Assembly (NCBI GenBank): GCA_038501625.1
Contig: JAZAYU010000201.1
Coordinates: 806,001 to 870,000 of the forward strand
Reading direction: 5' to 3'
Source: Corbicula japonica
Lineage: Eukaryota > Mollusca > Bivalvia > Venerida > Cyrenidae
DNA length: 64,000 bases
A model generated the notes under the pieces. It worked only from the letters and a program-made list of their open reading frames with translations. It had not been told where the DNA came from and ran no database searches. Position numbers and translations under genes: made by a program. Shown in pieces: positions 1 through 45,421 of this stretch (the stretch's first letter is position 1; each line of letters opens with the position of its first letter).

Positions 1-268
1 CATTTACTCAGTGTCAAAATTTATTTTTAAACTAACAATTTTTTTCCAGGAAAAGCCGCCGTTTTTGAATGTATAGTTGTTTTGATGAATTTTTCAAAAA
101 TAATGTCGGAGTCAATTTCTATTTGCAAAGATGCTATAACGAAAATGCTTTTGTTTAAAACATATTAAACAAATGAAGTATTTGCTTCCTAATATGGGGT
201 AAGGTCATGTAAAAATATAATCATTCAAAATTTAGAATAAAAAAAATTAAAAAAACATGGTTACACAC

Positions 269-412
269 AAGTACTCCAAAGCAGTAAGATCAGTTAGTAA
301 TCCTGATTGAATGAAATCTATATTGTTATTAGAGAGGTAGAGTCGCTGTAAATTTGTTTGTCCGGTGAAAGATCCATCCGGTATCTGCCCCAGATTATTG
401 TTTTCGATGTAT
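269..412 (-). CDS. LRR gene exon 22 (two LRRs), last exon in window
   Basis: A 144-bp phase-2 exon encoding YIENNNLGQIPDGSFTGQTN, then LYLSNNNIDFIQSGLLTDL and ALEYL. The acceptor is TTTTCAG and the donor ACTT/GTGTGT is weak. The next exon must lie beyond the left edge; 1-268 shows no further LRR. Confidence 0.88.
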
Positions 413-759
413 CTGAAAATATAAGTTGAACCGTTAGAGACAACCAATTCTGGACAACAGTGTTTGTTACTTGTAGTTTAAAAGTCACTTCGCGACTGCA
501 ACATGCCTTACGTATCATAATATATGTTATAAATATTCACAAATTTCGAATAAGTATGCAATACAATATCATTTTGAACTACATATCCAATCAGGAGATG
601 AAAGTTTTAATTAAGTTTGCAGAATGTTCTCGAAATGACCATAAACGACATTACTCTTTATTTTGCGTTGTAGAAAAGTCATGCATGCCAAAGTTCTTTG
701 TTATTTCGTTAATTGTTTGTGGCGTCCTTTTTGAATTTCATACTTTTATAACAAGCATG

Positions 760-810
<51 letters not shown>

Positions 811-3800
811 TCTCTTCTTTTTCGCTGCATGGGGAGGCTGTGTTTTGTAGGTGTGGCGATTCCTGATATGCATATATTTCTTTTTTTTTATTTTCTTTTT
901 TTTCAAAGAGAATTTGAATAAGTTTTGGATATTTTAAATATTAAAATATTTTTGTAGGACAAAGTTACTTTAACCACTTACATTCTGAGTGGATTCTGCG
1001 AAGACGGTATAGCTTGTGGATAGACTGTGAGGAGATTGTTGGAGAGAAATATGTATCCCAGATTGACATTATCAAAGGCATCTATACTAAGACCAGTAAT
1101 GTTGTTATTGGTGAGGTAGAAAAACTCGCCAACGCTAGATGAACCACCAAATAACGGTTGCGTGATAATACCCAAGATGTTGTCGGACAAATCACTGAAA
1201 GAAAAAACAACGGACATATAATGCACAGGTTTTTAAAGGAACTTTCACCGAGTGACAAAACACGGACATTAATCTTGATCAACAAACTGTGGTTGGTAGG
1301 CCACTGAATGACAAAAATTGGGAATTTAATAATTTATGTCGTTTCAGGATAGGACACTGAATGATAAATCCCGGCCATAAAATATACAAGCTGTTGTTGG
1401 ACACGCACTGAAAACAATTTGTGGGCCTATAGTTGGATAGGTCGCCGAAAGACAAAGAATGGGCTTAAACACACAAAGATTTGTTTGACAGAAACAACAT
1501 ACGGACATATAATATTATAGTCGTTGTTGGTAAGTTCACGGAAACAAAATGCGCAAACATATTATACAAAAGTTGCTGTTAAACAGGCCATTTAAACACA
1601 AAACACGAACAACCATAACACATGTTACAATAAAACAGGCCACTTAAACACAAAACACGGACATATTATAACCCATGTTACAATAAAACATATCACTGAA
1701 ACACAAAACACAGACGTCTTTTCATCAACCGTACACGTAAAAACCCAAGAGCATATCAAATATTTTTTTGAAATGACCATTATATCATACAAAATATGGC
1801 ATCATGCTACATGTACTCGTATATGACGCTATTTTCCTTAAAATAAAGAAAAAAAATGACAGCATTTTTTAGGAGGAATATTTAATGATAACTTACAGAT
1901 TTTCGCTCACAACGACATTATAAAAAGCCTCCTTTTCCACTGTTGTGATTCCTCCACTATTGATGTAAATATTTCTAGCAGAAACACTGTTAAGTGCCCT
2001 CGAAGGAATCTTAGAGAAGTACATGCTGTTTAGAAACAAGTCCTCGGACAGACTGACGGACGAAAAGGATTTCCAGTGCAGCTCCCGCATTGTATTTCTC
2101 CGCAGGTCAAGGTTCTTTGCAGTAAGGCCGTTAAAAGCCTGCGTCGCAACTGATGTAATCTTGTTGTTGACTAAGGAACTTTTAAATAGAAATATATTAT
2201 ATTACATGTAAAGTAGAAAATTATTCGAGTGCTAGAACAGTGAACGATATATAAGAAACATAACGTTTAAGTTTACCTGTTCTCAACACTTAACAAATGA
2301 CGGTTAACCGGTGATTTGTTCATAAATAAAAATATAGATTTTAAGGTTCTGTGATGAATAATAACATTTTTAAACTAACAATAAAACTCGTTCACAAAAT
2401 TTTTGAAAGCAGCATTAAAATATAAATATGTTTGCTCTCTTTTCTATTTTACTGTGTGGGAAGGTTGTTTTCTCTGTGTTATGCACGATTAACCTTTTTT
2501 AAAAGTTAAAATCTTTGTCAAAAAGACCTTTCCATTGTTATATTAAAATATCAATCAAATAGAATCAATTCATTTCATCTTAGGAAACTGACTAAAAAGG
2601 TAAACGACTGCCAATCATATCCTGTTGGTGTACAATTGGATAAAAAATCTCTTATGCTCTTCGGTTTTTTGAATCTCAGAAACTTACAGCCAGTTTGCAA
2701 CGATCACATTATTGAATGTATTTGTCTCGAGGATGACAATCCTATTGCTGCTGAAGTCCATGGTCCCCTGTAGCGTGTCTCCGGCATCTACTATGTTGAG
2801 ATTCTGAAAGTCGCCGCCATTAGGGAGTCGTGTCAACACGTTATTTGCCAGTGAACTGAATGATATAGGAAGCAAGACATATGTTTCGTAATACTTAAAC
2901 TGTAAAACGGAATTGTCATGTATTTAAAAAAAGATAATAATAATGCTCGACATGTTTATTGAAAATCAAAATTAATATCTTAACTTTAACAATAGTAATA
3001 AATTTAATACACTCACCAAAAGTTCTAATTGGTCACATTTGGTCTGTATTTTTATTAGAAAGACATCGACTTAACTCATGATAAATAATTACTTGCAAAC
3101 AACGAACTTCGATATTATCATTTAATCTTTTTAAAAATTGAACTTAGGAACAGTTTTGAGGAGTTATTCTTAATTTTGCTAACATGCATTTCATGCAATA
3201 AAATCTCACGCAACCAGAAAACTACTTCGAGTTACTTTTTCAGTTTTAATTGAAACCCTCCTTAGGAAGAAAACCATTAAACAACCATTAAACCTTATTT
3301 TATTAAACAGCATTTTCGTGTAAAAATCCATTTATAATAACCTCCCTTTCAATTAAAGACTGTTCTTAATTTCAGCCTGCTTTGAAAGTCAATAGCACGA
3401 AAACAATCAAAAGATCAAAACGACATCGAAAAATTAATTACTAAACAACATAGTTATTTTCTAACTCTCTTGACACAGGAAAGAAACGGAACTAGCCTAC
3501 TTTCCTAACACATACAATTGATGACCAATTAGAGCTTTGGGTTACATAGTACATTTTAATTTGTTAAAATAATATTATATCAATACAATTCACGAACTGT
3601 TGAATGAAGAACAAGACATATTCATTTATTACATAAATACGGGTACTGATTACGGATGATCTTGAAACTAGAAAAATATATTATGCATCTATACATTAAC
3701 CGTGTTGCAATAAATATTAAAATACGAACGCGATATTGGGATGAGGGGAAGTGCTGCATTTTGCGTACATTAAGTTAGATAATATACGTTAAAGCTCAAC

Positions 3801-6800
3801 TTTGGGTACTAATAAGAAGTAAGTTGAGTAGAGTAAGTTGGTAGTGCTTGGCTCCTTACAGTCGTGTCATGATGGTGACGTGGGCAAATGTTCCATCTTC
3901 TATGTAGCCTATGTCATTGTTGTTAAACAAGATGTCCCCTTTTAGCGGACAGTTCTGGAAGTGAGATTTCAGCAGCTGTGGGATGTTGTTATACGCCATT
4001 TGTCTGGAAATAAAACAACAAAAAAACAAGGGCATATCCTTAAATATATTGACAAGTGAAATATGCATATCCAGAAATAATTGCCTCCTACACGAAGCCA
4101 ATATGTGGAGAGGAAATGAGAGCATGGGTTAATCAAAGGATCAATTTCAAAAAGACACCAAAACAATTTAAAGAAATTAAAGGAGATAAAAGCAAAATTA
4201 TATTTGTTTAAAATTTGATGAAAACAAGTAAAATACATGTAAATTAAAATATATCTCTTCTAGGGTCTGATCATTCTGTGATCTTGCAACATGCTCTTCT
4301 TTTTACTGTACAGTATCTAAAAAAACAATTCTCAAAGAAAGAATTAACTTTGAAAGCACCAAACAACACAAGTAATTAAAATATAAATATACACCTGGAA
4401 AAAAGTTAAGCACCCCCGACTTTTTTTTCAACCCACCTATATTCAAAGTTTCACAATGTGAAATTGTCATGTGTTTTTTCCTTTCTGTGAACTACTTTGG
4501 ATAATATTGATCATTATGTGTCAGAATAAAACAATATCATAAAAAAATAACAAAATTTTATTAACAAATGAGATCATTGAAATTCATATGACTTTTTCAC
4601 AATATCTCAGTCCTTCACAAGTATTGTCATACAGAGTTCATAAACACTGAATTTAATTCATTTTTCACTTCAGTAGATCAATTATCATCATAACAAAATT
4701 CGTATCACAGATAAATGTCAATATCGGGTGTATCCGCCATTTGCCTGGATAACTGCTGCAACCCTCCTACGCATACTGCCTGTAAGCCTTCTGATCTGCT
4801 GCTGCGTTATCCGTCGCCATTCCTGATGTAACCGAGCCTCTAACCTGAATGCTTTCATCCCTTTAACAATATAGTGAAGAAAATTTGAAACCTAAAATTA
4901 TTAAATTTTGATTTAATATGTTAAAAATAAACGGAAAACAAATAGGGGGTGCTTAACTTTTTTCCAGGTGTATACAAGACAAATTACCAAATATAACTTA
5001 CATTTCAGCGAGAGATGTACAGTTAGCAAATGCTGCTGGAGGGATATAGTCTATGGCATTGTTGCTGAGCCAGAGCTGTCGTAAATTCTGTAAATTGCTG
5101 AATGGATATTTGTGCAGGAAACGAAACTCATTGTTATCCAGTTTACTGCAAGGTAAAATTAGGAATAGCATTATATATACGGTTCTGTATAGCATGGTAA
5201 AATTTTGAATAGCATTTCATATATGGTTCTGTGTAGCATGGTAAAATTAGGAATAGCATTTAATATATGCTTCTGTATAGCATGGTAAAATTAGGAATAG
5301 CATTTAATATATGCTTCTGTATAGCATGGTAAAATTAGGAATAGCATTTAATATATGCTTCTGTATAGCATGGTAAAATTAGGAATAGCATTAAATATAT
5401 GCTTCTGTATAGCATGGTAAAATTAGGAATAGCATTTAATATATGCTTCTGTATAGCATGGTAAAATTAGGAATAGCATTTAATATATGCTTCTGTATAG
5501 CATGGTAAAGTTAGGAATAGCATTTTATATATGGTTTTGTATAGCATCGATAAAGTTTTTAACTACTTCTTAATAAAAACTAACAGTTATCAAGCAGTCA
5601 AAGCATTAACAAAATTAGAATGTGGAAAGTAAACTTTTCTGTGTTGTTAAACTGAAGTTTAAGCAATATTTTATAATTGGCGGGACATCCACTGGAATAA
5701 ATAATACATTCCAGCTGAAGAGACGGTACATGTTAATTTTGAAACCGCTGACTCCTTTGTATGGATGTATCTCAGGGTTCGTTCAGGGAAGTGTTCTATA
5801 CTTACAGATATTGTATGTCATCATTGAATGCACCATTCTCAATGGCAATGATTCTATTACCGGTCAATATTCTGAAAATAATTTGTATATATAAATAAAA
5901 TTAAAGATAGAGAGCGTGCATCAATAGCTTACATTAAGAGGTCGCAAACATTGCAAATGGCGAAAACAGGCTAAAATTTCAAAAAATGAATTTTGGGGGA
6001 AATACTTATTGCCACTTAGATTTGAGTAAATAAATGTATTTAGCTATGGATGTAGTAAATGTTTGCAAGCTCAATTTAGTCTAATTCATGTTCTAATTAC
6101 CAAGCACATACTAAAACAAAAGAAAAACCATTTGCATGAGAACTCTGAAATTCATGAACAATATACCAAAGCAACTCATACCTGAAATAAGTATATGCTG
6201 GTCTACAATGTTTAGTGCCAATCCGTCAAAATAATGTTAGGGTTATCAAGAAATTCAATGAAAACTTACTTCCTACTTTCACTTTCTACTTTCACTCTGA
6301 ACCAGGAAGTAAGATTTCCTTGAATTTCTTGAAAACCCTAACATTATTTTGACGAATTGGCACTAAACATTGTAGACCAGCATATACTTATTTCAGGTAT
6401 GAGTTGTTTTGGTATATTGTTCATGAATTTTAGAGTTCTCATGCAAATGGTTTTTCTTTTGTTTTAGTATGTGCTTGGTAATTAGAACATGAATTGGACT
6501 AAATTGAGCTTGCAAACATTTACTACATCCATAGCTAAATACATTTAATAACTAAAATATAGGTGGCAATAAGTATTTCCCCCAAAATTCATTTTTTGAA
6601 ATTTTAGCCTGTTTTCGCCATTTGCAATGTTTGCGATACCTTAAGACATATAGTCTACTGACTTAAAAATGATAACGTTTTGTAATATAAAACACGCCTG
6701 GCCCTTCCTCCGTACGCGCTGCATGCAGGTTAATGAAATCCAAATCGTGATCTGGTTCACACATTTATTTTAATGTAAATCAAAGCAAGTGTTATTGTAA

Positions 6801-33800: not shown

Positions 33801-36800
33801 ATATATAGACTATAATTATTATGACCGCCATATCTATCATTGGTGGAGACCTGCCTGATGTAAAGACTATATCATGACCACCATATCTATCATTAGCGGA
33901 GACCTGCCTGATATCTAGACTGTATCATGACCACCATATCTCTGATTGGTGGAGACCTGCCTGATGTATAGACTATATTCTGAGCACCATATACATCATT
34001 AGTGGAGACCTGCCTGATATATAGACTATATCATGACCGCCATATCTATGATTGGCGGAAACCTGCCTGATATATAGACTATATCATGACCGCCATATCT
34101 ATGATTGTTGGAGACCTGCCTGATATATAGACTATATCATGACCACCATATACATCATTAGTGGAGACCTGCCTGATATATAGACTATATCATGACCACC
34201 ATATCTATCATTGGTGGAGACCTGCCTGATATATAGACAATATCATGACCGCCATATCTATGATTGGCGGAGACCTGCCTGATATATAGACTATATCATG
34301 ACCACCATATACATCATTAGTGGAGACCTGCCTGATATATAGACTATATCATGACCGCCATATCTATGAATGGCGGAGACCTGCCTGATTTATAGACTAT
34401 ATCATGACCGCCATATCTATGATTGGCGAAGACCTGCCTGATATATAGACTATATCATGACCACCATATACATCATTTGTGGAGACCTGCCTGATGTATA
34501 GACTATATCATGACCACCATATTTATCATTGGTGGAGACCTGCCTGATATAAAGACTATATCATGACCGCCATATCTTTGATTGGCGGAGACCTGCCTGA
34601 TGTAAAGACTATATCATGACCACCATATCTCTCATTAGTTGAGACCTGCCTGATGTAAAGACTATATCATGACCGCCATATCTTTGATTGGCGGAGACCT
34701 GCTTGATGTAAAGACTATATCATGACCACCATATCTCTCATTAGTTGAGACCTGCCTGATGTAAAGACTATATCATGACCACCATATCTATCATTGGTGG
34801 AGACCTGCTTGATGTAAAGACTATATCATGACCACCATATCTATCATTGGTGGAGACCTGCCTGATGTAAAGACTATATCATGACCACCATATCTAACAT
34901 TGGTGGAGACCTGCCTGATGTAAAGACTATATCATGACCACCATATCTATCATTAGTTGAGACCTGCCTGATATATAGACTATATCATGACTACCATATC
35001 TATCATTGGTGGAGACCTGCCTGATATAAAGACTATATCATGACCACCTTATCTATCATTGGTGGAGACCTGCCTGATGTAAAGACTATATCATGACCAC
35101 CATATCTATCATTGGTGGAGACCTGTCTGATATAAAGACTATATCATGACCACCATATCTATCATTGGTGGAGACCTGCCTGATATATAGACTATATCAT
35201 GACCACCATATCTCTCATTGGTGGAGACCTGCCTGATGTAAAGACTATATCATGACCACCATATCTATCATTGGTGGAGACCTGCCTGATGTAAAGACTA
35301 TATCATGACCACCATATCTATCATTGGTGGAGACCTGTCTGATATAAAGACTATATCATGACCACCATATCTATCATTGGTGGAGACCTGCCTGATATAT
35401 AGACTATATCATGACCACCATATCTCTCATTGGTGGAGACCTGCCTGATGTAAAGACTATATCATGACCACCATATCTATCATTGGTGGAGACCTGTCTG
35501 ATATAAAGACTATATCATGACCACCATATCTATCATTGGTGGAAACCAGCCTGATATATAGACTTAATCAAGACCGCCATATCTATCATTAGCGGAGATC
35601 TGCCTGATATATAGACTATATCATGACCACCATATCTATCATTAGTTGAGACCTGCCTGATGTAAAGACTATATCATGACCACCATATCTATCATTAGTT
35701 GAGACCTGCCTGATGTAAAGACTATATCATGACCGCCATATCTTTGATTGGCGGAGACCTGCTTGATGTAAAGACTATATCATGACCACCATATCTCTCA
35801 TTAGTTGAGACCTGCCTGATGTAAAGACTATATCATGACTACCATATCTATCATTGGTGGAGACCTGCCTGATATATAGACTATATCATGACCACCATAT
35901 CAATCATTGGTGGAGACCTGCCTGATATATTGACTATATCATGACCACCATATCTATCATTATCGGAGACCTGCCCGATTTATAGACTATATCATGACCA
36001 CCATACCTATCATTAGCGGAGACCTGCCTGATATATTGACTATATCATGACCACCATATCTATCATTAGTGGTGACCTGCCTGATATATTGACTATATCA
36101 TGACCACCATATCTATCATTAGCGGAGACCTGCCCGATTTATAGACTATATCATGACCACCATATCTATCATTAGCGGAGACCTGCCTGATGTATAGACT
36201 ATATCATGACCACCATATCTATCATTGGTGGAGATATTCCTGATATATAGACTATATCATGACCACGATATCTATCATAACTTGAGACCTGCCTGATGTA
36301 AAGACTATCATGACTACCATATCTATCATTGGTGGAGACCTGCCTGATGTAAAGACTATATCATGACCACCATATTTATCATGGGTGGAGACCTGACTGA
36401 TATATAGACTATATCATGACCACCATATCTATCATTAGCGGAGACCTGCATGATGTATAGACTATATCATGACCACCATATCTATCATTAGCGGAGACCT
36501 GACTGATATATAGACTATATCATGACCACCATATCTATCATTAGCGGAGACCTGACTGATATATAGACTATATCATGACCACCATATCTATCATTAGCGG
36601 AGACCTGCCTGATGTAAAGACTATATCATGACCACCATATCTATCATTAGTGGAGACCTGCCTGATGTAAAGACTATATCATGACCACCATATCTATCAT
36701 TGGTGGAGACCTGCCTGATATATTGACTATATCATGACCACCATATCTATCATTGGTGGAGATATTCCTGATATATAGACTATATCATGACCACGATATC

Positions 36801-39800
36801 TATCATAACTTGAGACCTGCCTGATGTAAAGACTATCATGACTACCATATCTATCATTGGTGGAGACCTGCCTGATGTAAAGACTATATCATGACCACCA
36901 TATCTATCATTGGTGGAGAACTGTCTGATGTAAAGACTATATCATGACCACCATATCTATTATGAGTTGAGGCCTGTCTGATGTAAAGTCTATATCATGA
37001 CTACCATATCTATCATTAGTGGAGACCTGCCTGATGTATAGACTATATCATGACCACCATATCTATCATTAGTTGAGACCTGCCTTATGTAAAGACTATA
37101 TCATGACCGCCATATCTTTGATTGGCGGAGACCTGCTTGATGTAAAGACTATATCATGACCACCATATCTCTCATTAGTTGAGACCTGCCTGATGTAAAG
37201 ACTATATCATGACCACCATATCTATCATTGGTGGAAACCTGCCTGATGTATAGACTTTATCATAACCACCATATCTATCATTGGTGGAAACCTGCCTGAT
37301 GTAAAGACTATATCATGACCACCATATCTATCATTGGTGAAAACCTGCCTGATATATAGACTATATCATGACCACCATATCTATCATTGGTGGAAACCTG
37401 CCTGATATAAAGACTATAGCATGACCACCATATCTATCATTAGTGGAGACCTGCCTGATGTAAAGACTATAGCATGACCACCATATCTATCATTGGTGGA
37501 GACCTGCCTGATGTAAAGACTATATCATGACTACCATATCTATCATTAGTGGAGACCTGCCTGATGTATAGACTATATCATGACCACCATATCTATCATT
37601 GGTGGGGACCTGCCTGATATATAAACTATATCATGACCACCATATCTATCATTGGTGGAGACCTGCCTGATGTAAAGACTATATCATGACCACCATATCA
37701 ATCATTAGTGGAGACCTGCCTGATGTAAAGACTATATCATGACCACCATATCTATCATTGGTGGAGACCTGCCTGATATATAGACTATATCATGACCACC
37801 ATATCTATCAGTGGTGGAGACCTGCCTGATGTAAAGACTATATCATGACTACCATATCTATCATTAGTGGAGACCTGCCTGATGTAAAGACTATATCATG
37901 ACCACCATATCTCTCATTAGTTGAGACCTGCCTGATGTAAAGACTATATCATGACCACCATATCTATCATTGGTGGAGACCTGCCTGATGTAAAGACTAT
38001 ATCATGACTACCATATCTATCATTAGTGGAGACCTGCCTGATGTAAAGACTATATCATGACCACCATATCTCTCATTAGTTGAGACCTGCCTGATGTAAA
38101 GACTATATCATGACTACCATATCTATCATTGGTGGAGACCTGTCTGATGTAAAGACTATATCATGACTACCATATCTATTATGAGATGAGGCCTGTCTGA
38201 TGTAAAGTCTATATCATGACTACCATATCTATCATTAGTGGAGACCTGCCTGATGTAAAGACTATATCATGACCACCATATCTATCATTGGTGGAGACCT
38301 GCCTGATATAAAGACTATATCATGACTACCATATCTATTATGAGATGAGGCCTGTCTGATGTAAAGTCTATATCATGACTACCATATCTATCATTAGTGG
38401 AGACCTGCCTGATGTAAAGACTATATCATGACCACCATATTTATCATTGGTGTAGACCTATCTGATATAAAGACTATATCATGACCGCCATATCTATCAT
38501 TGGTGGAGACCTGCCTGATATAAAGACTATATCATGACCGTCATATCTATGATTGGTAAAGACCTGCCTGATGTAAAGACTATATCATGACCACCATATC
38601 TATCATTAGATGAGACCTGCCTGATGTAAAGACTATATCATGACCACCATATTTATCATTGGTGGAGACCTGTCTGATATAAAGACTATATCATGACCGT
38701 CATATCTATGATTGGTAAAGACCTGCCTGATGTAAAGACTATATCATGACCACCATATCTATCATTAGTTGAGACCTGCCTGATGTAAAGGCTATATCAT
38801 GACCACCATATTTATCATAAATGGAGACCTGCCTGATATATAGACTATATCAAGACTGCCATATATATCATTAGTGGAGACCTGCCTGATGTATAGACTT
38901 TATCATGACCACCATATCTATCATAAGTTGAGACCTGCCTGGTGTAAAGACTATATCATGACTACCATATCTATCATAAGTTGAGACCTGCCTGATGTAA
39001 AGACTATATCATGACCACCATATGTATCATAAGTTGAGACCTGCCTGGTGTAAAGACTATATCATGACTACCATATCTATCATTAGTGGAGACCTGCCTG
39101 ATGTAAAGACTATATCATGACCACCATATTTATCATTGGTGGAGACCTGCCTGATATATAGACTATATCATGACCGCCATATCTATCATTGGTGGAGACC
39201 TGCCTGATATATAGACTATATCATGACCACCATATCTATCATTAGTTGAGACCTGCCTGATGTAAAGACAATATCATGACCACCATATCTATCATTGGTG
39301 AAGACCTGCCTGATATATAGACTATATCATGACCGTCATATCTATGATTGGTAAAGACCTGCCTGATGTAAAGACTATATCATGACCACCATATCTATCA
39401 TTAGTTGAGACCTGCCTGATGTAAAGGCTATATCATGACCACCATATTTATCATAAGTGGAGACCTGCCTGATAAATAGACTATATCATGACCGCCATAA
39501 CTATCATTAGTGGAGACCTGCCTGATGTATAGACTTTATCATGACCACCATATCTATCATAAGTTGAGACCTGCCTGGTGTAAAGACTATATCATGACTA
39601 CCATATCTATCATAAGTTGAGACCTGCCTGGTGTAAAGACTATATCATGACCACCATATCTATCATAAGTGGAGACCTGCCTGATGTAAAGACTATATCA
39701 TGACCACCATATCTATCATTAGTGGAGACCTGCCTGATGTATAGACTTTATCATGACCACCATATCTATCATAAGTTGAGACCTGCCTGGTGTAAAGACT

Positions 39801-42800
39801 ATATCATGACTACCATATCTATCATAAGTTGAGACCTGCCTGGTGTAAAGACTATATCATGACCACCATATCTATCATTAGTTGAGACCTGCCTGATGTA
39901 AAGACTATATCATGACTACCATATCTATCATTGGTGGAGACCTGCCTGATGTAAAGACTATATCATGACTACCATATCTATCATTAGTGGAGACCTGTCT
40001 GATATAAAGACTATATCATGACCACCATATCTATCATTGGTGGAGACCTGCCTGATGTAAAGACTATCATGACTACCATATCTATCATTAGTTGAGACCT
40101 GCCTGATGTAAAGACTATATAATGACTACCATATCTATCATTGGTGGAGACCTGCCTGATGTAAAGACTATATCATGACTACCATATCTATCATTAGTGG
40201 AGACCTGTCTGATATAAAGACTATATCATGACCACCATATCTATCATTGGTGGAGACCTGCCTGGTGTAAAGACTATATCATGACCACCATATCTATCAT
40301 TGGTGGAGACCTGCCTGATGTATAGACTATATCATGACCACCATATCTATCATTAGTGGAGACCTGTCTGATATAAAGACTATATCATGACCACCATATC
40401 TATCATTGGTGGAGACCTGCCTGATGTATAGACTATATCATGACCACCATATCTATCATTGGTGGAGACCTGTCTGATGTATAGACTATATCATGACCAC
40501 CAAATATATCATTGGTGGAGACCTGCCTGATATATAGACTATATCATGACCACCATATCTATCATTGGTGGAAACCTGCCTGATATATAGACTATATCAT
40601 GACCACCATATCTCTCATTGGTGGAAACCTGCCTGATATATAGACTATATCATGACCACCATATCTCTCATTGGTGGAAACCTGCCTGATATAAAGACTA
40701 TATCATGACCACCATATCTATCATTGGTGGAGACCTGCCTGATATAAAGACTATATCATGACCACCATATCTATCATTAGTGGAGACCTGCCTGATGTAT
40801 AGACTTTATCATGACCACCATATCTATCATAAGTTGAGACCTGCCTGGTGTAAAGACTATATCATGACTACCATATCTATCATTAGTGGAGACCTGCCTG
40901 GTGTAAAGACTATATCATGACCACCATATCTATCATTAGTTGAGACCTGCCTGATGTAAAGACTATATCATGACTACCATATCTATCATTGGTGGAGACC
41001 TGCCTGATGTAAAGACTATATCATGACCACCATATCAATCATTGGTGGAGACCTGACTGATATAAAGACTATATCATGACCACCATATCAATCATTGGTG
41101 GAAACCTGACTGATATAAAGACTATATCATGACTACCATATCTATCATTGGTGGACACCTGCCTGATGTAAAGACTATATCATGACCACCATATCAATCA
41201 TTGGTGGAAACCTGCCTGATGTAAAGACTATATCATGGCCACGATATCTATCATCGGTGGAGACCTGACTGATATAAAGACTATATCATGACTACCATAT
41301 CTATCATTAGTTGAGACCTGCCTGATGTAAAGACTATATCATGACCACCATATCTATCATTGGTGGAGACCTGCCTGATATATAGACTATATCATGACCA
41401 CCATATCTATCATTGGTGGAGACTGCTTGATATAAAGACTATATCATGACCACCATATCTCTCATTGGTGGAGACCTGTCTGATATAAAGACTATATCAT
41501 GACCACCATATCTATCATTGGTGGAGACCTGTCTGATATAAAGACTATATCATGACCACCATATCTCTCATTGGTGGAGACCTGTCTGATATAAAGACTA
41601 TATCATGACCACCATATCTCTCATTGGTGGAGACCTGCCTGATGTAAAGACTATATCATGACCACCATATCTATCATTGGTGGAGACTGCTTGATATAAA
41701 GACTATATCATGACCACCATATCTATCATTGGTGGAGACTGCTTGATATAAAGACTATATCATGACCACCATATCTATCATTAGTTGAGACCTGCCTGAT
41801 ATATAGACTATATCATGACCACCATATCTATCATTGGTGGAGACCTGCCTGATGTAAAGACTATATCATGACCACCATATCTGTCATTGGTGGAGACCTG
41901 CCTGATTTAAAGACTATATCATGACCACCATATCTGTCATTGGTGGAGACCTGCCTGATGTAAAGACTAAATCATGACCGCCATATATATCATTAGTGCA
42001 GACCTGCCTGATATAAAGACTATATCATGACCACCATATCTGTCATTGGTGGAGACCTGCCTGATGTAAAGACTATATCATGACCGCCATATATATCATT
42101 AGTGCAGACCTGCCTGATATATAGACTATATCATGACCACCAAATCTATCATTGGTGGAGACCTGCCTGATGTAAAGACTATATCATGACCGCCATATCT
42201 ATCATTAGTGAAGACCTGCCTGATGTAAAGACTATATCATGACCATCATATCTATCATTAGTGGAGACCTTCCTGATGTATAGACCACATCATGACGACC
42301 ATATCTCTCATTGGTGGAGACCTGCCTGATGTAAAGACTATATCATGGCCACCATATCTATCATTGGTAGAGACCTGCCTGATATATCGTCTAGGTCCCT
42401 AAAATCGCGTGGAACCTTACATCGCGGACATATTTGTTTATACTGTAGTCTCGTGAGATTTTATCGCCCGCTAGTGAATTATGTCGCCACGCTTACTACG
42501 AAAAGTACTCTAGTGTATCTGCTGTCAAACTTATCAAAATGCGCTATAAATAGGTAAATATTTTAAATTACATTTTGATTTACATGAATGTGTGTAATTG
42601 TACTAATCCTTTTTTAATCTCCATAGAAACTACACAATTGACCCATATAAAGTTATTGCAAACCCTGCTTTCTTACTCCGTATGCTGCTTTGACATTTTA
42701 TGAATTAAAGTTACGTGATATCATAGCCGAAATTATTAGGCCAAATTATTTTTGTGATAGTTTCATTTACCATATACCTTAAGTGATTTTTTTTCGATTT

Positions 42801-45421
42801 TGGACATATCCCAGACCGGTCAGGAGGAAAGAAGATGTGTTACGGCTCTCATCAATGCCTACAAAAAAAAATTAAAAAAAGAAGGAATTCCTGTCCTCAG
42901 GGCCTCTAAGATATTTATGGTCCCTGAAAATTCACTTAGCGACAGTGCTGGGAAAGGTGGACCCAGAGACTGTTGTTATTGTGAAGTTCCCTTTATTTGA
43001 ACAATTTGAAGAGGCGTGATGAGTCACTTAACTGTTTAAAAATTGTAGGATCTATTGTATTTTCAAAATTTCAAAGAATAAAGTTTAAAACATTTTCCTT
43101 GTTGTTGGACACGAACACCCATTAATTACTATTGGTCTTGGCCTAAGGAGAAATTGATTTTGTGAAGTGACGTAATAGCACGCGATCCTAGGAACTACTT
43201 TCAAAGTGGCTGCCCAATGTGTGTTGTGCTAGATAGTTTAAAAACTTAAAATGAAAAAGTAAATGGAACATTCTTTGGTAAATTGGTTTACATGGAGGAA
43301 TAAATAACCTTCAACTGCCATGTAAGTAGTTTTGATTTTCCCTGGTTTTCTACATGTATTTTTACTTTGAATATTAATACCGCGATGCAAGGTCCGTCGA
43401 GGGTATAGGCTATATCATGACCACCATATACATCATTAGTGGAGACCTTCCTGATGTAAAGACTATATCATGACCACCATATCTATCATTGGTGGAGACT
43501 GCTTGATATATAGAATTTATCATGACCACCATATACATCATTAGTGGAGACCTGCCTGATGTAAAGACTATATCATGACCACCATATCTATCATTGGTGG
43601 AGACTGCTTGATATATAGAATTTATCATGACCACCATATACATCATTAGTGGAGACCTGCCTGATGTAAAGACTATATCATGACCACCATATCTATCATT
43701 GATGGAGACTGCTTGATATATAGACTTTATCATGACCACCATATCTATCATTGGTGGAGACCTGCCTGATGTAAAGACTATATCATGACTGCCATATCTA
43801 TCATTAGTTGAGACCTGACTGATATATAGACTATATCATGACCACCATATCTATCATTAGTTGAGACCTGACTGATATATAGACTATATCATGACCACCA
43901 TATCTATCATTGGTGGAGACCTGCCTGATGTAAAGACTATATCATGACCACCATATCTATCATTAGTTGAGACCTGACTGATATATAGACTATATCATGA
44001 CCACCATATCTATCATTGGTGGAGACCTGCCTGATGTAAAGACTATATCATGACCACCATATCTATCATTAGTTGAGACCTGTCTGATATAAAGACTATA
44101 TCATGACCACCATATCTATCATTGGTGGAGACCTGTCTGATGTAAAGACTATATCATGACCACCATATCTATCATTGGTGGAGACCTGCCTGATATAAAG
44201 ACTATATCATGACCACCATATCTCTCATTAGTGGAGACCTGTCTGATATAAAGACTATATCATGACCACCATATCTATCATTGGTGGAGACCTGCCTGAT
44301 ATAAAGACTATATCATGACCACCATATCTATCATTGGTGGAGACCTGTCTGATGTAAAGACTATATCATGACCACCATATCTCTCATTAGTGGAGACCTG
44401 CCTGATGTAAAGACTATATCATGACCACCATATCTATCATTAGTTGAGACCTGCCTGATGTAAAGACTATATCATGACCACCATATCTATCATTAGTGCA
44501 GACCTGCCTCATGTAAAGACTATATCATGACTACCATATCTATCATTGGTGGAAACCAGCCTGATATAAAGACTATATCATGACCACCATATCTATCATT
44601 GGTGGAAACCAGCCTGATATAAAGACTATATCATGACCACCATATCTATCATTGGTGGAAACCAGCCTGATATATAGACTATATCATGACCACCATATCT
44701 ATCATTGGTGGAAACCAGCCTGATATAAAGACTATATCATGACCACCATATCTATCATTGGTGGAAACCAGCCTGATATAAAGACTATATCATGACCACC
44801 ATATCTATCATTGGTGGAAACCAGCCTGATATAAAGACTATATCATGACCACCATATCTATCATTGGTGGAAACCAGCCTGATATAAAGACTATATCATG
44901 ACCACCATATCTATCATTGGTGGAAACCAGCCTGATATATAGACTATATCAAGACCGCCATATCTATCATTATCGGAGATCTGCCTGATATATAGACTAT
45001 ATCATGACCACCATATCTATCATTGATGGAGACCTACCAGATGTATATACTATGTCATGTGCCCCATATCTATCATTTTAGGAGACCAACTTGATGTATA
45101 GACTATACACTGTGCACCATATCTATCAGTAGTGGAGACCTGCCTGATGCCTGAAGTATATTTTATATCATGTGCGCCATATCTGCCATTAGTGAAGACG
45201 TAACCGATGGTGCAGCATACTTATAATTTCTTATAATTATAATTAGGCTTTATAATTTGCTCCATCTATATCATTAGTGGAGACCTACCTAATGTATAGG
45301 CTATGCCATGTGCACCATATCTATCATTGTAGTAATCGTTTCCAAAGAAAGCCCCTGTCACCTTGGAGATGGGAAGCAGCAGCAGTAGCCATGTCAGGGC
45401 CAAGGTCATTGATGTTCTCAT
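269..45421 (-). CDS. Large secreted leucine-rich-repeat protein gene, 22 exons seen, 3' end outside window
   Basis: Gene-level entry; the exons are listed separately. Joining 22 exons on the minus strand gives about 908 codons with no stop: a signal peptide, a Cys-rich cap with the spacing C-x2-C-x-C-x9-C (an LRRNT-like module) and about 34 LRRs of 22-26 residues. Typical segments are LYLSNNNIDFIQSG, NISNNEIVYIQGGTF and LWLSNNAIDYIPPAAF. Intron 1 is phase 1 and every later intron is phase 2, nearly always splitting the Leu, Ile or Val codon that opens an LRR, so most exons are exact multiples of one repeat. LRR proteins of this kind bind protein ligands outside the cell (chaoptin, artichoke and ALS-like families); no particular ligand can be inferred. 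No membrane segment is seen, but the C-terminus is missing. Four introns carry splice-site-anchored tandem repeats, and most transposons of the first 45 kb lie in introns. Orthology is not established. Confidence 0.9.
762..806. repeat. (CT)n microsatellite
   Basis: An uninterrupted CT dinucleotide run of about 45 bases in the intron between exons 21 and 22. Confidence 0.97.
982..1194 (-). CDS. LRR gene exon 21 (three LRRs)
   Basis: A 213-bp phase-2 exon encoding DLSDNILGIITQPLFGGSSS, FFYLTNNNITGLSIDAF and YIFLSNNLLTVYPQAI. The start of this exon and its acceptor TTTCAG recur in degenerate form through the upstream intron. The donor is GAAT/GTAAGT. Confidence 0.9.
1175..1730 (-). repeat. Degenerate ~52-bp tandem repeat including the 3' splice site of exon 21
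   Basis: On the plus strand a motif like GGACAAATCACTGAAAGA, followed some 12 bases later by CGGACATATAAT, recurs near 1195, 1247, 1302, 1352, 1407, 1443, 1537, 1588, 1640 and 1692. Spacing is mostly 50-55. The first copy overlaps the beginning of exon 21 and its acceptor. Copies become more alike away from the exon (the last three all read like AAACACAAAACACGGACA). Confidence 0.75.
1897..2178 (-). CDS. LRR gene exon 20 (four LRRs)
   Basis: The largest exon found, 282 bp and 94 codons, phase 2 at both ends. It opens SLVNNKITSVATQAFNGLTA and continues through KNLDLRRNTMRELHW and LFLNSMYFSKIPSRAL to NVVVSENL. The acceptor TTTAAAAG has only a short pyrimidine tract. The donor is ATCT/GTAAGT. 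Confidence 0.88.
2688..2855 (-). CDS. LRR gene exon 19 (two LRRs)
   Basis: A 168-bp phase-2 exon encoding SLANNVLTRLPNGGDFQNLN, then TMDFSSNRIVILETNTF. The spacing between the two repeats is longer than usual. The acceptor is ATTCAG and the donor is GGCT/GTAAGT. Confidence 0.9.
2856..3859. other. AT-rich intron sequence, nothing recognised
   Basis: The 1.0-kb intron between exons 18 and 19. No repeat family, open frame or RNA structure was recognised. Confidence 0.6.
3860..4003 (-). CDS. LRR gene exon 18 (two LRRs)
   Basis: A 144-bp phase-2 exon encoding QMAYNNIPQLLKSHFQNCPL, then ILFNNNDIGYIEDGTFAHV. The donor is GACT/GTAAGG. Confidence 0.9.
4392..4970 (-). mobile_element. Tc1/mariner-family element, internally deleted
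   Basis: A 579-bp element with about 26-bp terminal inverted repeats (CACCTGGAAAAAAGTTAAGC at the left, its complement at the right), flanked by TA at 4390-4391 and 4971-4972. It keeps only the C-terminal part of the transposase on the minus strand. It lies in the intron between exons 17 and 18. Confidence 0.9.
4718..4859 (-). pseudogene. Tc1-like transposase C-terminal remnant
   Basis: In one minus-strand frame it reads LEARLHQEWRRITQQQIRRL, then SMRRRVAAVIQANGG and TRY before a stop. This matches the usual end of Tc1/mariner transposases (W..I....I..L..SM..R..AVI.A.GG.T.Y). The catalytic D,D,E part is absent, so it cannot be active. Confidence 0.88.
5002..5145 (-). CDS. LRR gene exon 17 (two LRRs)
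   Basis: A 144-bp phase-2 exon encoding KLDNNEFRFLHKYPFSNLQN, then LRQLWLSNNAIDYIPPAAF. The acceptor TACCTTGCAG is the edge of a 44-bp tandem array lying in the intron upstream. The donor is AAAT/GTAAGT. Confidence 0.9.
5148..5550 (-). repeat. 44-bp tandem array abutting the 3' splice site of exon 17
   Basis: About nine copies of a 44-bp unit containing GCATGGTAAAATTAGGAATA on the plus strand. The first unit starts at 5148, so the array touches the acceptor CAG. Each unit repeats the sequence that serves as the pyrimidine-rich tract of the real splice site, except that TTGCAG is replaced by ATGC. Confidence 0.92.
5806..5871 (-). CDS. LRR gene exon 16 (one LRR)
   Basis: A 66-bp phase-2 exon encoding ILTGNRIIAIENGAFNDDIQ and YL. 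The acceptor is TTTTCAG and the donor is ATCT/GTAAGT. Confidence 0.88.
5934..6644. mobile_element. Long-arm foldback (palindromic) element
   Basis: Two near-perfect inverted arms of about 330 bp (5939 to about 6272, and about 6306 to 6640) surround a short loop containing repeated CTTTCACTTTCTAC. Outer ends read AGGTCGCAAACATTGCAAAT and its complement, next to TTAAG on both sides. No coding capacity. It fills most of the intron between exons 15 and 16 and could form a long RNA hairpin in the pre-mRNA. Confidence 0.92.
6836..6985 (-). CDS. LRR gene exon 15 (two LRRs)
   Basis: A 150-bp phase-2 exon encoding HIGSNVIQYVPKAVTNSTVL, then LTQLYMQDNKITFLEAGIF and LTTLVTL. The donor CATT/GTATAA is weaker than the others. 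A palindromic foldback repeat fills most of the next intron. Confidence 0.88.
7240..8105. repeat. Interspersed repeat built of ~150-bp modules
   Basis: Repeated phrases such as GAACATGGGTTCTGCACAT, CCTTGACCTTGAGC and CATGAAATTCC recur every 100-160 bp. The block ends with ACAGACAGACGGACGGACGA and TATACCCCTCCCGCTAATGG. These features resemble non-autonomous repeats common in mollusc genomes; the superfamily is not known to me. Confidence 0.65.
8164..8510. repeat. Single-arm copy of the foldback element
   Basis: It begins TTAAGAGGTCGCAAACATTG and matches one arm of the palindrome at 5934-6644 along its length, ending near GGAAATCTTACTTCCTGGTT where the loop would start. The second arm is absent. 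Confidence 0.88.
8714..8863 (-). CDS. LRR gene exon 14 (two LRRs)
   Basis: A 150-bp phase-2 exon encoding YLHGNLITDIENDDFCNMTN, then LQNLFLGGNRLTEDS and CLPVLDLL. The donor is TATT/GTAAGT. Confidence 0.9.
9147..9281 (-). CDS. LRR gene exon 13 (two divergent LRRs)
   Basis: A 135-bp phase-2 exon encoding YADNNGIVNVTEYGSEAFPA, then a less regular second repeat ending AAYPVLHTL. The acceptor is ATAACAG and the donor is ACTT/GTAAGT. A plus-strand open frame over the same bases is a shadow. Confidence 0.82.
9732..9962 (-). CDS. LRR gene exon 12 (three LRRs)
   Basis: A 231-bp phase-2 exon with three repeats, starting DLHNNDISALPSRSFENLPA, with LVYLFVSDNALQTYP in the middle and KLEIM at the end. 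The donor is TCAT/GTGAGT. Confidence 0.9.
10465..10536 (-). CDS. LRR gene exon 11 (one LRR)
   Basis: A 72-bp phase-2 exon encoding EVHKNFLPTITVNVFSNIPT and LLHL. The acceptor is ATTTCAG and the donor is ACTT/GTGAGT. Confidence 0.87.
10805..10876 (-). CDS. LRR gene exon 10 (one LRR)
   Basis: A 72-bp phase-2 exon encoding NISNNEIVYIQGGTFDQLPN and LKIL, a textbook 24-residue LRR. The acceptor is TTTTCAG and the donor is TATT/GTAAGT. Confidence 0.9.
11274..11351 (-). CDS. LRR gene exon 9 (one LRR)
   Basis: A 78-bp phase-2 exon encoding GMDGNKITRISRNSIAALAT and PTFQHL. It follows a 10.8-kb intron loaded with transposons. The acceptor is ATTATAG and the donor is ATCT/GTAAGT. No other LRR exon was found between it and exon 8. 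Confidence 0.87.
11440..11570 (-). repeat. Left remnant of the 50-bp splice-donor array
   Basis: Two to three diverged copies of the unit seen at 21600-22190 (CTAACAGGTAAATAAGCGAT, ACGAGGTATCCCGGAATAA). The array is cut at 11570 by the tyrosine-recombinase retrotransposon and resumes at 19651. Confidence 0.88.
11571..11733 (+). repeat. A1 terminal repeat of the YR retrotransposon
   Basis: About 163 bp starting ATATAATTTTCTGAGTTTGA and containing CGCACGAGAGATTCGTGCTG, a small palindrome. It is repeated as A2 at 19190-19360. Confidence 0.92.
12092..12480 (+). pseudogene. Gag-like ORF with degenerate zinc knuckle (YR retrotransposon)
   Basis: An acidic start SDSEDESRINQAKTGYLSGG is followed, in a shifted frame, by PGPCFACGENTNFREN. 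The spacing C-x2-C-x4-N-x4-F is that of a CCHC knuckle that has lost its His and last Cys. Two overlapping open frames suggest a frameshift near 12300. Identification rests on this motif and on position in the element. Confidence 0.55.
12806..13309. mobile_element. 504-bp MITE with ~110-bp inverted repeats
   Basis: The left end is CAGGTCTAGGAAACGGCTGT and the right end its complement; subterminal TTTATTTATAGATAAATGTG is also inverted. It is flanked by TTCAA at 12801-12805 and 13310-13314. It has no coding capacity and is nested inside the YR retrotransposon. Confidence 0.9.
13870..14660 (+). pseudogene. DIRS reverse transcriptase C-terminus and RNase H, decayed
   Basis: Fragments in successive frames follow the order of the DIRS RT-RNase H. 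RKFAGKVRQIIIYVFGNWSP (RT end) comes first, then YVFTDKW (RNase H start), QWNAVEAAKSS running by a frameshift into RELVAVLHVLKSFSRVLAM, NERADYLSRIVGYDDWG and IDAYEESWHYEFGLLFR. The palm with YxDD was not found, so the 5' part of the RT seems deleted. Confidence 0.82.
14860..15735 (+). repeat. ~68-bp tandem repeat inside the YR retrotransposon
   Basis: About 13 copies of a unit containing GGCGGCATCGCCTGGATTTG, TTATGTAGTATTTTAACTA and GAGCGGCATCGCTAAAGTAA. The GCGGCATCGC core occurs twice per unit. It begins soon after the RNase H region and ends shortly before the MULE insertion. Confidence 0.93.
15766..17719 (+). mobile_element. Mutator-like element (MULE) with FLYWCH exons, no transposase core
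   Basis: A 1954-bp element with about 39-bp inverted ends (GGACATAATCCCCTACGGAC in both) and further copies of GGACAAAATCCCCTA just inside. The 9-bp target duplication GAGCAAAAC at 15757-15765 and 17720-17728 is the size typical of MULEs. It holds a two-exon FLYWCH domain but no recognisable MULE transposase, so it is probably non-autonomous. Confidence 0.92.
16296..16764 (+). CDS. FLYWCH-type zinc finger, two exons (16296-16448, 16606-16764)
   Basis: Exon 1 encodes NGYAYTKKHSTKS, RWECCKRGSIKCTG and ALVTDLE, ending at donor GAA/GTAAGT. Exon 2 starts after TTTCTGCAG with ITTVKSEKDHTHPAD and ends at CAG/GTAGGT. Joined in phase 0 they supply the FLYWCH order C..C..H-x-H, followed by a helical tail (VASMKVKAEIKANVL). 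FLYWCH fingers sit N-terminal to MULE transposases and bind DNA. Both exons are open, unlike the surrounding retroelement. No third exon was recognised, so the C-terminus is unknown. Confidence 0.85.
17884..18960 (+). pseudogene. DIRS-type tyrosine recombinase, decayed
   Basis: Fragments include KEPATADILLNSYNQIYVDF with LKSRRIICASL following, then GVNDRMVKCHGR, a stop, and ELAKDGFMKDSLQEIISVSL. The latter is the conserved C-terminal block of DIRS/Ngaro recombinases, which carries the H-x-x-R signature and is followed by the tyrosine region. Multiple stops show it is dead. The stretch 17884-18140 before it is not assigned. Confidence 0.82.
19091..19189 (+). repeat. B1 repeat of the YR retrotransposon
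   Basis: About 99 bp starting TTCATTCGGTATACCCAAGT and ending GGTAATCGGGGAA. It is repeated as B2 at 19545-19650. Confidence 0.92.
19190..19360 (+). repeat. A2 repeat of the YR retrotransposon
   Basis: A copy of A1 directly abutting B1. It carries a small extra duplication (AATGAAGTAATGAAGTAA). Confidence 0.92.
19545..19650 (+). repeat. B2 terminal repeat of the YR retrotransposon
   Basis: A copy of B1 forming the right end of the element; the 50-bp array resumes at the next base. Confidence 0.92.
19651..19703 (-). repeat. 50-bp array monomer between two insertions
   Basis: One monomer (AAAAAGTTATACTAACAGGT onwards) left between the retrotransposon and the modular repeat at 19704. Confidence 0.9.
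19704..21597. mobile_element. Non-autonomous repeat with inverted ends and internal tandem modules (type 1)
   Basis: It starts with a hairpin (CTGTCAGAGGAGACAG) and GCTCGACTATTCG and ends CGAATAGTCGAGCTAAAA, the complement of the start. Inside are about five ~190-bp modules (CATGGTGAACATTTGTG, GTAACAGTGACCTTGACCTT), then three ~160-bp modules (AAAAAGGGGCATAA, TTGTTGGTAATGATGTAGA), then GACGCCGACGCCGACACCGG. It is inserted in the 50-bp array. Short open frames in it are modules, not genes. Confidence 0.78.
21598..22190 (-). repeat. 50-bp tandem array carrying the end of exon 8 and its 5' splice site
   Basis: About 12 copies of a 49-51-bp unit; plus-strand core TATACTAACAGGTATATAAG then CGACGAGGTATCCC. 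In transcript sense each unit contains TACCTCGTCGCTTATATACC and T/GTTAGTATAAC, that is, the last ~31 bases of exon 8 and its donor. The array runs directly into exon 8. Confidence 0.95.
22160..22231 (-). CDS. LRR gene exon 8 (one LRR; source of the 50-bp array)
   Basis: A 72-bp phase-2 exon encoding SFANNQLLQIHPTIFGDTSS and LIYL. The donor is ACCT/GTTAGT. About 31 coding bases at the exon end (22160-22190) plus the donor and the first intron bases are repeated about a dozen times in tandem immediately downstream, so many copies of this 5' splice site follow the real one. Confidence 0.85.
22232..23466. other. Intron 7, nothing recognised
   Basis: AT-rich sequence between exons 7 and 8. No family or gene was recognised. 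Confidence 0.55.
23467..23535 (-). CDS. LRR gene exon 7 (one LRR)
   Basis: A 69-bp phase-2 exon encoding AMMDNLLYWLPNYFVDGPNL and RM. The donor ATGGC/GTAAGT splits an Ala codon rather than the usual Leu. Confidence 0.83.
23630..23755. repeat. Palindromic MITE copy 1 (CCAAGATCATA family)
   Basis: It starts CCCAAGATCATAAAACTAA, has CAGATGCTTGTGATTTGAGA in its second half, and ends in the complement of the start (GATCGTGG). It is a near-palindrome without coding capacity; four related copies lie at 47-54 kb. Confidence 0.85.
24165..24242 (-). CDS. LRR gene exon 6 (one LRR)
   Basis: A 78-bp phase-2 exon encoding NLAGNRISLSTDNHQGWRWP and ATIQYM. The acceptor is TTTCAG; the donor is the less usual ACAT/GTACGC. 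Confidence 0.8.
24837..24899 (-). CDS. LRR gene exon 5 (one short LRR)
   Basis: A 63-bp phase-2 exon encoding LVQGTALNHVPDLSTTAVTK, slightly shorter than the usual repeat. The acceptor is GTTACAG and the donor is AAGT/GTAAGT. Confidence 0.8.
25361..25435 (-). CDS. LRR gene exon 4 (one LRR)
   Basis: A 75-bp phase-2 exon encoding TIINCANFELFEERTFENLT followed by SLQEL, a clear LRR. The donor is AACT/GTAAGT. The intron towards exon 3 contains a 703-bp TTAA-flanked element. Confidence 0.88.
25606..26308. mobile_element. 703-bp TTAA-flanked element, copy 1
   Basis: Long inverted ends start GGGATTGCCACACTCCTCCC and continue through CGGCATTTTGCC-like sequence for about 200 bp. It is flanked by TTAA at 25602-25605 and 26309-26312, the target of piggyBac-like transposases. 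No transposase seen. It lies between LRR exons 3 and 4. Confidence 0.85.
26404..26469 (-). CDS. LRR gene exon 3 (one LRR)
   Basis: A 66-bp exon with 22 codons, phase 2 at both ends, encoding VLRGKSMVNITAGTFPETTT. The acceptor is TTTGCAG and the donor is AGAT/GTAAGT. Confidence 0.85.
26575..26645 (-). repeat. Short interspersed sequence with ATATGCATAT core
   Basis: On the minus strand it reads GGCAGGCTGTGTTTTGTGAG then TGGCCATTCCCGATATGCAT. Related copies lie at about 825-880 and 57456-57526 (plus) and about 4055-4100 (minus). Confidence 0.7.
27040..27187 (-). CDS. LRR gene exon 2: Cys-rich N-terminal cap
   Basis: The exon encodes an acidic, aromatic stretch (NGLWSDDGSLQGNYLYENSY) followed by ECTGCTCDDAKGIITSC, the Cys spacing of an LRRNT cap. 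The acceptor is TTGATAG after a T-rich tract (phase 1) and the donor is ACAGT/GTAGGT (phase 2). The 53-bp satellite begins only about 25 bases from the acceptor, which leaves little space for a normal branch-point region. A second possible acceptor lies 7 bases further in (start 27180), but its phase does not match exon 1. Confidence 0.85.
27211..42386 (-). repeat. 53-bp satellite array, main block, filling intron 1
   Basis: About 286 head-to-tail copies of a 53-bp unit. Plus-strand core is ATCATGACCACCATATCTAT then CATTGGTGGAGACCTGCCTG; in transcript sense each unit contains AATGATAGATATGGTGGTC. Common variants are GTGGAGA/TTGAGA, GATGTAAAG/GATATATAG and CCACC/CCGCC. A few units are shortened by one or two bases, and multi-unit blocks recur. 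No gene lies inside. Confidence 0.98.
42387..43403 (+). mobile_element. pogo/Tigger-like element inserted in the 53-bp satellite
   Basis: A 1017-bp insertion exactly flanked by TA (42385-42386 and 43404-43405); removing it with one TA restores a normal monomer (GCCTGATA/TA/TAGGC). Imperfect inverted ends share GGACCTTGCATCGCGG-like sequence (42411-42427 against 43380-43395). It keeps a fragment of an N-terminal psq/CENP-B-type helix-turn-helix domain, so it is a deleted copy. Confidence 0.85.
42806..43020 (+). pseudogene. Tigger/pogo transposase N-terminal fragment
   Basis: The frame reads CVTALINAYKKKLKKEGIPV then LRASKIFMVPENSLSD, the pattern of a psq helix-turn-helix (..RAS..F.VP..SL.D). 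After a one-base shift it continues GKVDPETVVIVKFPLFEQFE and EA before a stop, like the linker of these transposases. The DDE core is absent. Confidence 0.7.
43404..45328 (-). repeat. 53-bp satellite array, right block, running into exon 1
   Basis: About 30 regular units to about 45030, then five or six diverged units (AGATGTATATACTATGTCAT, TGTATAGACTATACACTGTG) up to exon 1. A run of eight nearly identical units with GGAAACCAGCCTGATATAAA lies at about 44540-44940. The last unit includes the final 13 coding bases of exon 1. Confidence 0.96.
45316..45421 (-). CDS. LRR gene exon 1: signal peptide
   Basis: The exon encodes 35 residues plus one base (phase 1). It opens MRTSM, followed by the hydrophobic stretch LALTWLLLLLP and a small-residue region VTGA suited to signal-peptidase cleavage, then FFGNDYYNDRY. 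A CAG directly precedes the ATG, so a 3' splice site and an upstream 5' UTR exon are possible. The donor reads ATATG/GTGCAC. The last 13 coding bases (45316-45328) and this donor are the same sequence that recurs in every monomer of the 53-bp satellite filling the next intron. An alternative donor inside the exon (AAG/GTGACA) would be phase 0 and would not fit the frame of exon 2. Confidence 0.8.

Follow-up and report, generated by a model that had tools for sequence, protein, structure and literature searches.

The locus described here raises the question of why several introns of a single gene should carry tandem repeats that begin at, or right beside, a splice junction, and whether such junctions attract the duplications or simply tolerate them. 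The window, by which we mean the whole stretch of 64,000 nucleotides that was analyzed (positions 806001 to 870000 of contig C201 in the 1.07-Gb genome of the clam Corbicula japonica), contains 22 exons of a leucine-rich repeat (LRR) gene (Table 1).

The rebuilt gene model comprises 2,753 coding nucleotides (917 amino acids) in these 22 exons and is free of stop codons. All of its introns are GT-AG introns; intron 1 is in phase 1, and every later one is in phase 2. The product matches Pfam LRR_8 (E value of 6.3e-79) and has a signal-peptide-like N terminus that starts at position 45421 of the minus strand. A protein search with this product, in which 7,998 candidates were scored, returned the best 120 of 135 relatives at an E value of ≤0.001. 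Among the matches listed, the nearest come from Mercenaria mercenaria (77% over 78% of the query), Ruditapes philippinarum (55% over 59%), Potamilus streckersoni (51% over 64%), and the starfish Acanthaster planci (37% over 99%). Six homologues (P0001 to P0006) agree with the exon joins wherever their sequence is present, mostly without gaps; for the exon 20/21 and 21/22 joins, the agreement comes solely from P0005 (starfish) and P0006 (tubeworm). Because relatives align across the exon joins, the exons that carry the arrays are, judged by homology, real, and the exon numbers and end coordinates of a preliminary description of this DNA proved correct in the 22-exon model. Pfam searches in three frames found no match at window positions 1 to 9002 on the plus strand, which is opposite to that of the LRR gene, or at 11300 to 20000 on the minus strand, and no exon was added between exons 8 and 9.

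Table 1. Positions within the window of the LRR gene, its array-bearing exons, and the adjoining repeats
Feature	Position	Strand	Basis or remark
LRR gene, exons 1 to 22	269..45421	-	Rebuilt model and homologue joins; gene goes on to the left of the window
Exon 1 (ATG, signal peptide)	45289..45421	-	Model; exon end kept in P0001, P0003, P0004, and P0005
53-bp array, intron 1	27213..45199	-	TRF (27229-45149) and unit search
Exon 8 (72-nt LRR exon)	22160..22231	-	Model; exon end kept in P0001 to P0004
50-bp array, intron 8	21597..22190	-	TRF
Further copies of the exon 8 unit	11445..11570	-	94 bp from exon 9; unit search
Another piece of the exon 8 unit	19649-19706		Unit search
Exon 17	5002..5145	-	Model, homologue alignment
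44-bp array, intron 16	5148..5547	-	TRF
Exon 21	982..1194	-	Model; up to 28 nt at the start belong to the repeat
Degenerate array of ~47 to 52 bp, intron 20, entering the start of exon 21	1175..1715	-	Junction-copy search

The largest array occupies intron 1. Its first copy (45328-45276) straddles the donor of exon 1 (45288), and 40 of the 53 bases of this copy are coding. The junction copy shows 43/53 identity with the array consensus, and about 62 bp of degenerate sequence separates it from the regular array, which extends to within 25 bp of exon 2. Counting the exon 1 copy, 312 units match the consensus at 36 or more of the 53 bases, with a mean identity of 0.94. With gaps of ≤60 bp closed, the repeat-covered intervals are 27213-42386, 43404-45199, and 45262-45329; by arithmetic on these gap-closed intervals, about 94% of the 18,101-bp intron (45288-27188) consists of copies of the 53-bp unit. 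The array is interrupted at 42387-43403 by a 1,017-bp nonrepeat insertion, the ends of which, by eye, look like the imperfect inverted repeats of a DNA transposon.

The 50-bp array begins 31 nt inside exon 8, and these 31 nt together with the donor (22159) form its first copy. The unit that holds the real donor is identical to the consensus. More copies or pieces of the unit lie deeper in intron 8 (Table 1), and in our reading the repeat once spanned the greater part of an intron 8 that was then shorter, before other insertions broke it up. The same intron contains two inverted arrays of a 16-bp unit (15773-15919 and 17573-17713; 78% over 141 bp), which lie about 1.7 kb apart and resemble the ends of mobile elements.

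Two further arrays are found at acceptors. The 44-bp array terminates 2 bp before exon 17, so that its units contain the tract preceding the acceptor but no acceptor AG at that position; it therefore adjoins the junction rather than crossing it. Exactly at the exon 16/17 join, where this array sits in the clam, the Mercenaria mercenaria homologue (P0002) has the extra residues FILFSG, which could reflect an alternative acceptor or a gene model artifact. The array of intron 20 is degenerate: besides the junction copy, it has at least nine copies (1245-1715; scores of 13 to 21), of which TRF detects only the stretch 1581-1711, and the alignment of its best pair extends 28 nt past the junction, into exon 21. 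A possible fifth array, with a 39-bp unit, is located outside the window (locus L007), just behind the donor of exon 24. It is weak; its best alignment starts 6 nt inside the intron, and by eye it starts at the GT.

Other repeats and genes lie nearby. A tandem repeat of about 146 bp occurs at three places on contig C201 (window positions 20195-21004, L007 positions 4644-5579, and L008 positions 9158-9694) and, because it recurs in this way, is a dispersed satellite, unlike the local arrays at junctions. At 47952-48560 there is a 23-bp array with a unit that holds CGCTTCAG, resembling a plus-strand 3' splice site; no exon was identified beside this array. A match to Pfam PF15719 (DUF4674) at about 62994-63194 on the minus strand (E value of 1.1e-6, just above the cutoff) belongs to another gene.

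When each junction copy was compared with its own intron, the score was reached by none of 200 shuffles for exons 1, 8, 17, and 21 and by 4 of 200 for exon 24. The repeats of the LRR gene go well past what chance would give, whereas the same cannot clearly be said of their attraction to splice sites (see below). The four arrays touch two donors (exons 1 and 8) and two acceptors (exons 17 and 21) and have units of 44 to 53 bp, which include coding bases of exon 1 (40 nt), exon 8 (31 nt), and exon 21 (up to 28 nt) but none of exon 17. The arrays run into the introns, and a second copy is never left inside the spliced exon. Within the window and the 20 kb to its left, the 50-, 44-, and 53-bp consensuses each match their own site only. 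In a genome search that scored the best candidates and skipped very common words, no 53- or 50-bp repeat was found outside its own intron.

The direction of copying can be read from the homologues. In the exon 1 unit, the coding bases are conserved across other bivalves and a starfish (NDRYGAHGIAY in the clam versus NDRYGGQGIAY, NNRYGVDGISY, and NDRYGSKGIAY, with NLRYGAHGINY in the starfish). In the exon 8 unit, their conservation extends to bivalves (IFGDTSSLIYL in the clam and in Mercenaria; IFGDTSALVYL and VFGDVSSLVYL in others), and the starfish retains just the LRR pattern. Because these bases are conserved in relatives, the ends of exons 1 and 8 predate the arrays, which are thus copies of these exon ends. 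Identical sequence in exon and array would also be expected if the order were reversed, with the exon ends captured from a preexisting repeat, or if the units were mobile elements inserting at splice sites. We find these readings scarcely credible, given that the ends of exons 1 and 8 are conserved in several bivalve proteins, that of exon 1 also in the starfish, and that the tested units are unrelated, with the 53- and 50-bp ones found at their own locus only. Capture was rejected for exons 1 and 8 on the conservation of their ends (exons 17 and 21 are less tested in this respect). An introner or other mobile element was rejected for the 53- and 50-bp units, which the genome searches, limited for common words, found in their own introns only, the 50-, 44-, and 53-bp units being unrelated locally.

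Much of the preliminary description is thereby borne out. The arrays sit on the two donors and two acceptors that it named, as seen by TRF, unit searches, and shuffling, and three of the four units include coding bases, with the exon 17 array stopping short of its exon. Its view that the units arose separately and locally holds for the 50-, 44-, and 53-bp consensuses in the window and the 20 kb beside it. At exons 1 and 8, where the exon ends are conserved and the arrays are intronic, the growing intron received copies of coding bases from an exon that stayed fixed, as it had supposed. The same process has also acted several times in one gene, which has four junction arrays, three of them with units of demonstrably separate origin.

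The repeated sites might serve as alternative splice sites, donor or acceptor, and so alter the protein or its amount, in the manner reported for human IFI6. Such use would fit the exon 8 array, in which every one of the 12 units extending to the donor position keeps GT (the real donor included) and one unit carries a better-scoring GTAAGT. Decoys that score equal to the real site are present in this array and in the arrays of two other loci, L016 and L023 (see below), and the extra residues of P0002 at the exon 16/17 join point the same way. The 53-bp units, however, have lost the donor: GT is retained in 3 of the 312, the real donor among them, and GC is found in 262. Likewise, AG is missing from the exon 17 units where the acceptor would lie, and no decoy or only one equals the real site in the arrays of exon 17, exon 21, L009, L011, and L013. 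We therefore consider the use of these sites very unlikely. Because the exon 8 array keeps its donor and the 53-bp array has lost it, no general rule on decoy sites emerges.

The arrays are probably minisatellites of the kind called mirages in amphioxus, produced by random local duplication that is tolerated across junctions, with growth on the intron side while the exon copy is pinned. A local tandem duplication would, by chance, span or touch an exon-intron junction. Inside an exon, such a duplication would alter the message; one that straddles a junction would leave the real exon and splice site in place and could be tolerated because splicing at the original site would still yield the same mRNA. 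Slippage or unequal exchange may then lengthen the array, but only into the intron, as purifying selection would keep the copy with the real exon end. The outcome would be a fixed exon, a lengthening intron, and arrays that start in exons, all without any attraction to splice sites. One-sided growth of this sort is supported by the exon 8 units, which reach almost to exon 9, and by the 53-bp array, which reaches nearly to exon 2. The spliced LRR product is predicted from protein homology, from which we infer normal splicing; the 44-bp array, which adjoins its junction and does not cross it, counts against the account.

The principal competing explanation is that splice junctions are favored seeds, either because exon edges are prone to duplication through transcription, splicing, or chromatin or because selection protects the junction copy; in the latter variant, junction arrays cannot be lost and so outlast arrays deep in introns. 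The junctions of other genes in the same genome bear on this. Exons of myosin, CCT, and dynein genes were placed by homology in family searches of the genome (84, 54, and 97 exon matches, respectively), and those lying in fetched DNA (61, 42, and 44) were used. In total, 257,498 bases were fetched around these 147 exons, and 202 of the 294 exon ends passed a filter of splice score and distance. An LRR_8 search of the genome (160 matches; best 150 of 1365 candidates) gave many long open frames and was excluded from the survey. In the array-end test, TRF arrays with a period of 15 to 130 that end within -60 to +5 of a junction were compared with those at intron interior positions, for which masking was limited to the identified exons. 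A donor array in L016 was left out because it failed the donor filter, as was a two-copy 123-bp repeat in L024 that starts 96 nt inside its exon, beyond the tested interval.

Pooled over the three families, arrays end at 6 of the 202 junctions versus 3.3 expected (ratio, 1.8; P = 0.12), and three other period settings gave pooled ratios of 1.6 to 1.8 (P = 0.16 to 0.19). The myosin genes show an excess (5/86 versus 1.5 expected; ratio, 3.4; P = 0.017), whereas CCT (1/64 versus 1.0 expected) and dynein (0/52 versus 0.55) do not. The LRR gene itself yields just 2/47 (0.54 expected; ratio, 3.7; P = 0.10), because TRF does not register the exon 1 copy or the arrays of exons 21 and 24 as touching their junctions. 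A more sensitive copy search, run by the same procedure on junctions and interiors, could score 198 of the 202 junctions and gave 8 against 5.1 expected (ratio, 1.6; P = 0.15), with 7/83 in myosin (2.6 expected; P = 0.016), 0/64 in CCT, 1/51 in dynein, and 3/47 in the LRR gene (1.4 expected; ratio, 2.2; P = 0.16). At a stricter threshold, the pooled count was 6 versus 3.8 (P = 0.19), and that of the LRR gene was 2/47 (P = 0.37). In a coverage test, which counted segments that straddle a junction and have a copy, scoring ≥20, within the following 250 nt, junctions compared with interiors as 6/83 versus 53/517 in myosin, 0/64 versus 3/239 in CCT, and 2/47 versus 88/590 in the LRR gene, and junctions were not above interiors at any of six thresholds. 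Since long arrays inflate interior coverage, the array-end tests were made.

Arrays at junctions are thus not peculiar to the LRR gene, for myosin genes have them too. Examples from other genes of the genome are a 31-bp donor array in L009 and L011 and acceptor arrays in L016, L023, and L013. L009, L010, and L011 are three adjacent myosin genes (C4, 14.04 to 14.10 Mb), each with a 31-bp array; in L009 and L011 the real donor is GTAAGT and the copies have GTACGT, and the L010 array is tied to no listed exon.

The claim that duplication starts at exon-intron boundaries is, in that form, not supported by these counts, with a 1.8-fold ratio over 202 junctions (P = 0.12), a 1.6-fold ratio in the sensitive test (P = 0.15), and no excess in coverage. 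A special affinity for splice sites is not established by the 202-junction survey, and striking anchoring need not imply splice-site targeting. Junction rates close to those of intron interiors fit tolerance without targeting, and an excess of about 1.5- to 3-fold at junctions is possible. That most ratios exceed 1 nevertheless agrees with favored seeds, as do the presence of several arrays in one gene and the myosin excess. Array ends also pile up near junctions, and this pile-up, the myosin excess, and the seed model given below count against tolerance alone. When all 249 junctions are taken together, the interval from -31 to +2, which was chosen post hoc, contains 8 of 29 array ends (3.0 expected; P = 0.007). 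Without the LRR gene the count is 6/22 (P = 0.020), with two paralogues then counted once it is 5/21 (P = 0.057), and with one weak array removed as well it is 4/20 (P = 0.14). A seed model for the LRR gene alone gave P values of 0.002 to 0.04 for 4/7 to 4/11 arrays touching a junction, a tally that is our own and post hoc. Against favored seeds stand the CCT and dynein genes, the coverage of junctions, and the fact that two of the five myosin arrays lie in neighboring paralogues. Taking promotion and protection jointly, we judge favored seeds to be rather unlikely. The broader proposition, that exon edges in the clam genome are protected or preferred minisatellite seeds and that exon ends rank among the main sources of new intron DNA, is unlikely; if true, introns lengthen by copying the exons that border them.

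The preferred reading, of tolerated duplication with a pinned exon copy, places the clam arrays beside a phenomenon already in print, and the belief that the pattern was undescribed has to be given up. The amphioxus mirages are tandem duplications, minisatellite-like in form, that involve 5' or 3' exon boundaries and leave splicing apparently undisturbed; they affect the globin genes BflGb6 and BflGb9, Adh3, troponin C, and PGBD5 and have units of 10 to 160 bp (PMC3087553, PMC3902484). The clam arrays resemble them in having boundary-spanning units, in occurring at both 5' and 3' boundaries and in several genes, and in being of minisatellite size. Units that span a boundary and include exon bases are found at exons 1, 8, and 21 and not at exon 17, and both boundary types are represented, by two donors and two acceptors with units of 44 to 53 bp. 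The boundary copy of exon 1 falls below the mean identity of the interior copies, whereas the unit with the real exon 8 donor equals its consensus. In contrast to the mirages, the clam case concerns a bivalve, with several arrays in one gene and one array of hundreds of units that fills most of an 18-kb intron; the mirages apparently leave splicing undisturbed, and normal splicing of the clam gene is predicted from protein homology. Under that name, literature searches found mirages for amphioxus only, and no mollusc case appeared among the best-matching titles and abstracts, which is weak evidence of absence, as the subscription literature is thinly covered there.

Three other systems invite comparison. 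(i) A minisatellite of the human IFI6 (6-16) gene supplies splice donors (Turri 1995, cited in PMC4526556), and the clam too has an array that repeats a donor site; this human case is a second reason why the pattern cannot be called undescribed. The donors in the human repeat units are reportedly used, whereas the clam decoys are putative, and most units of the largest array lack GT. (ii) Introners consist of one related element present in many introns and genes, and the searches with the 53- and 50-bp units, limited for common words, revealed no such element. (iii) Intron gain by tandem duplication of coding sequence (PMC2891723), discussed also for variable repeats at human exon-intron boundaries (PMC2812944), shares with the clam the tandem duplication of sequence that contains a splice site. 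It differs in that existing introns of the clam lengthen and no new intron position arises. The clam pattern is therefore not new in kind but extreme in degree. It extends mirages from amphioxus to a bivalve, it includes an 18-kb intron of which about 94% is built from copies of a 53-bp piece that is three-quarters coding, and it offers a simple, testable account in which exon ends may feed the growth of introns while the protein stays unchanged.
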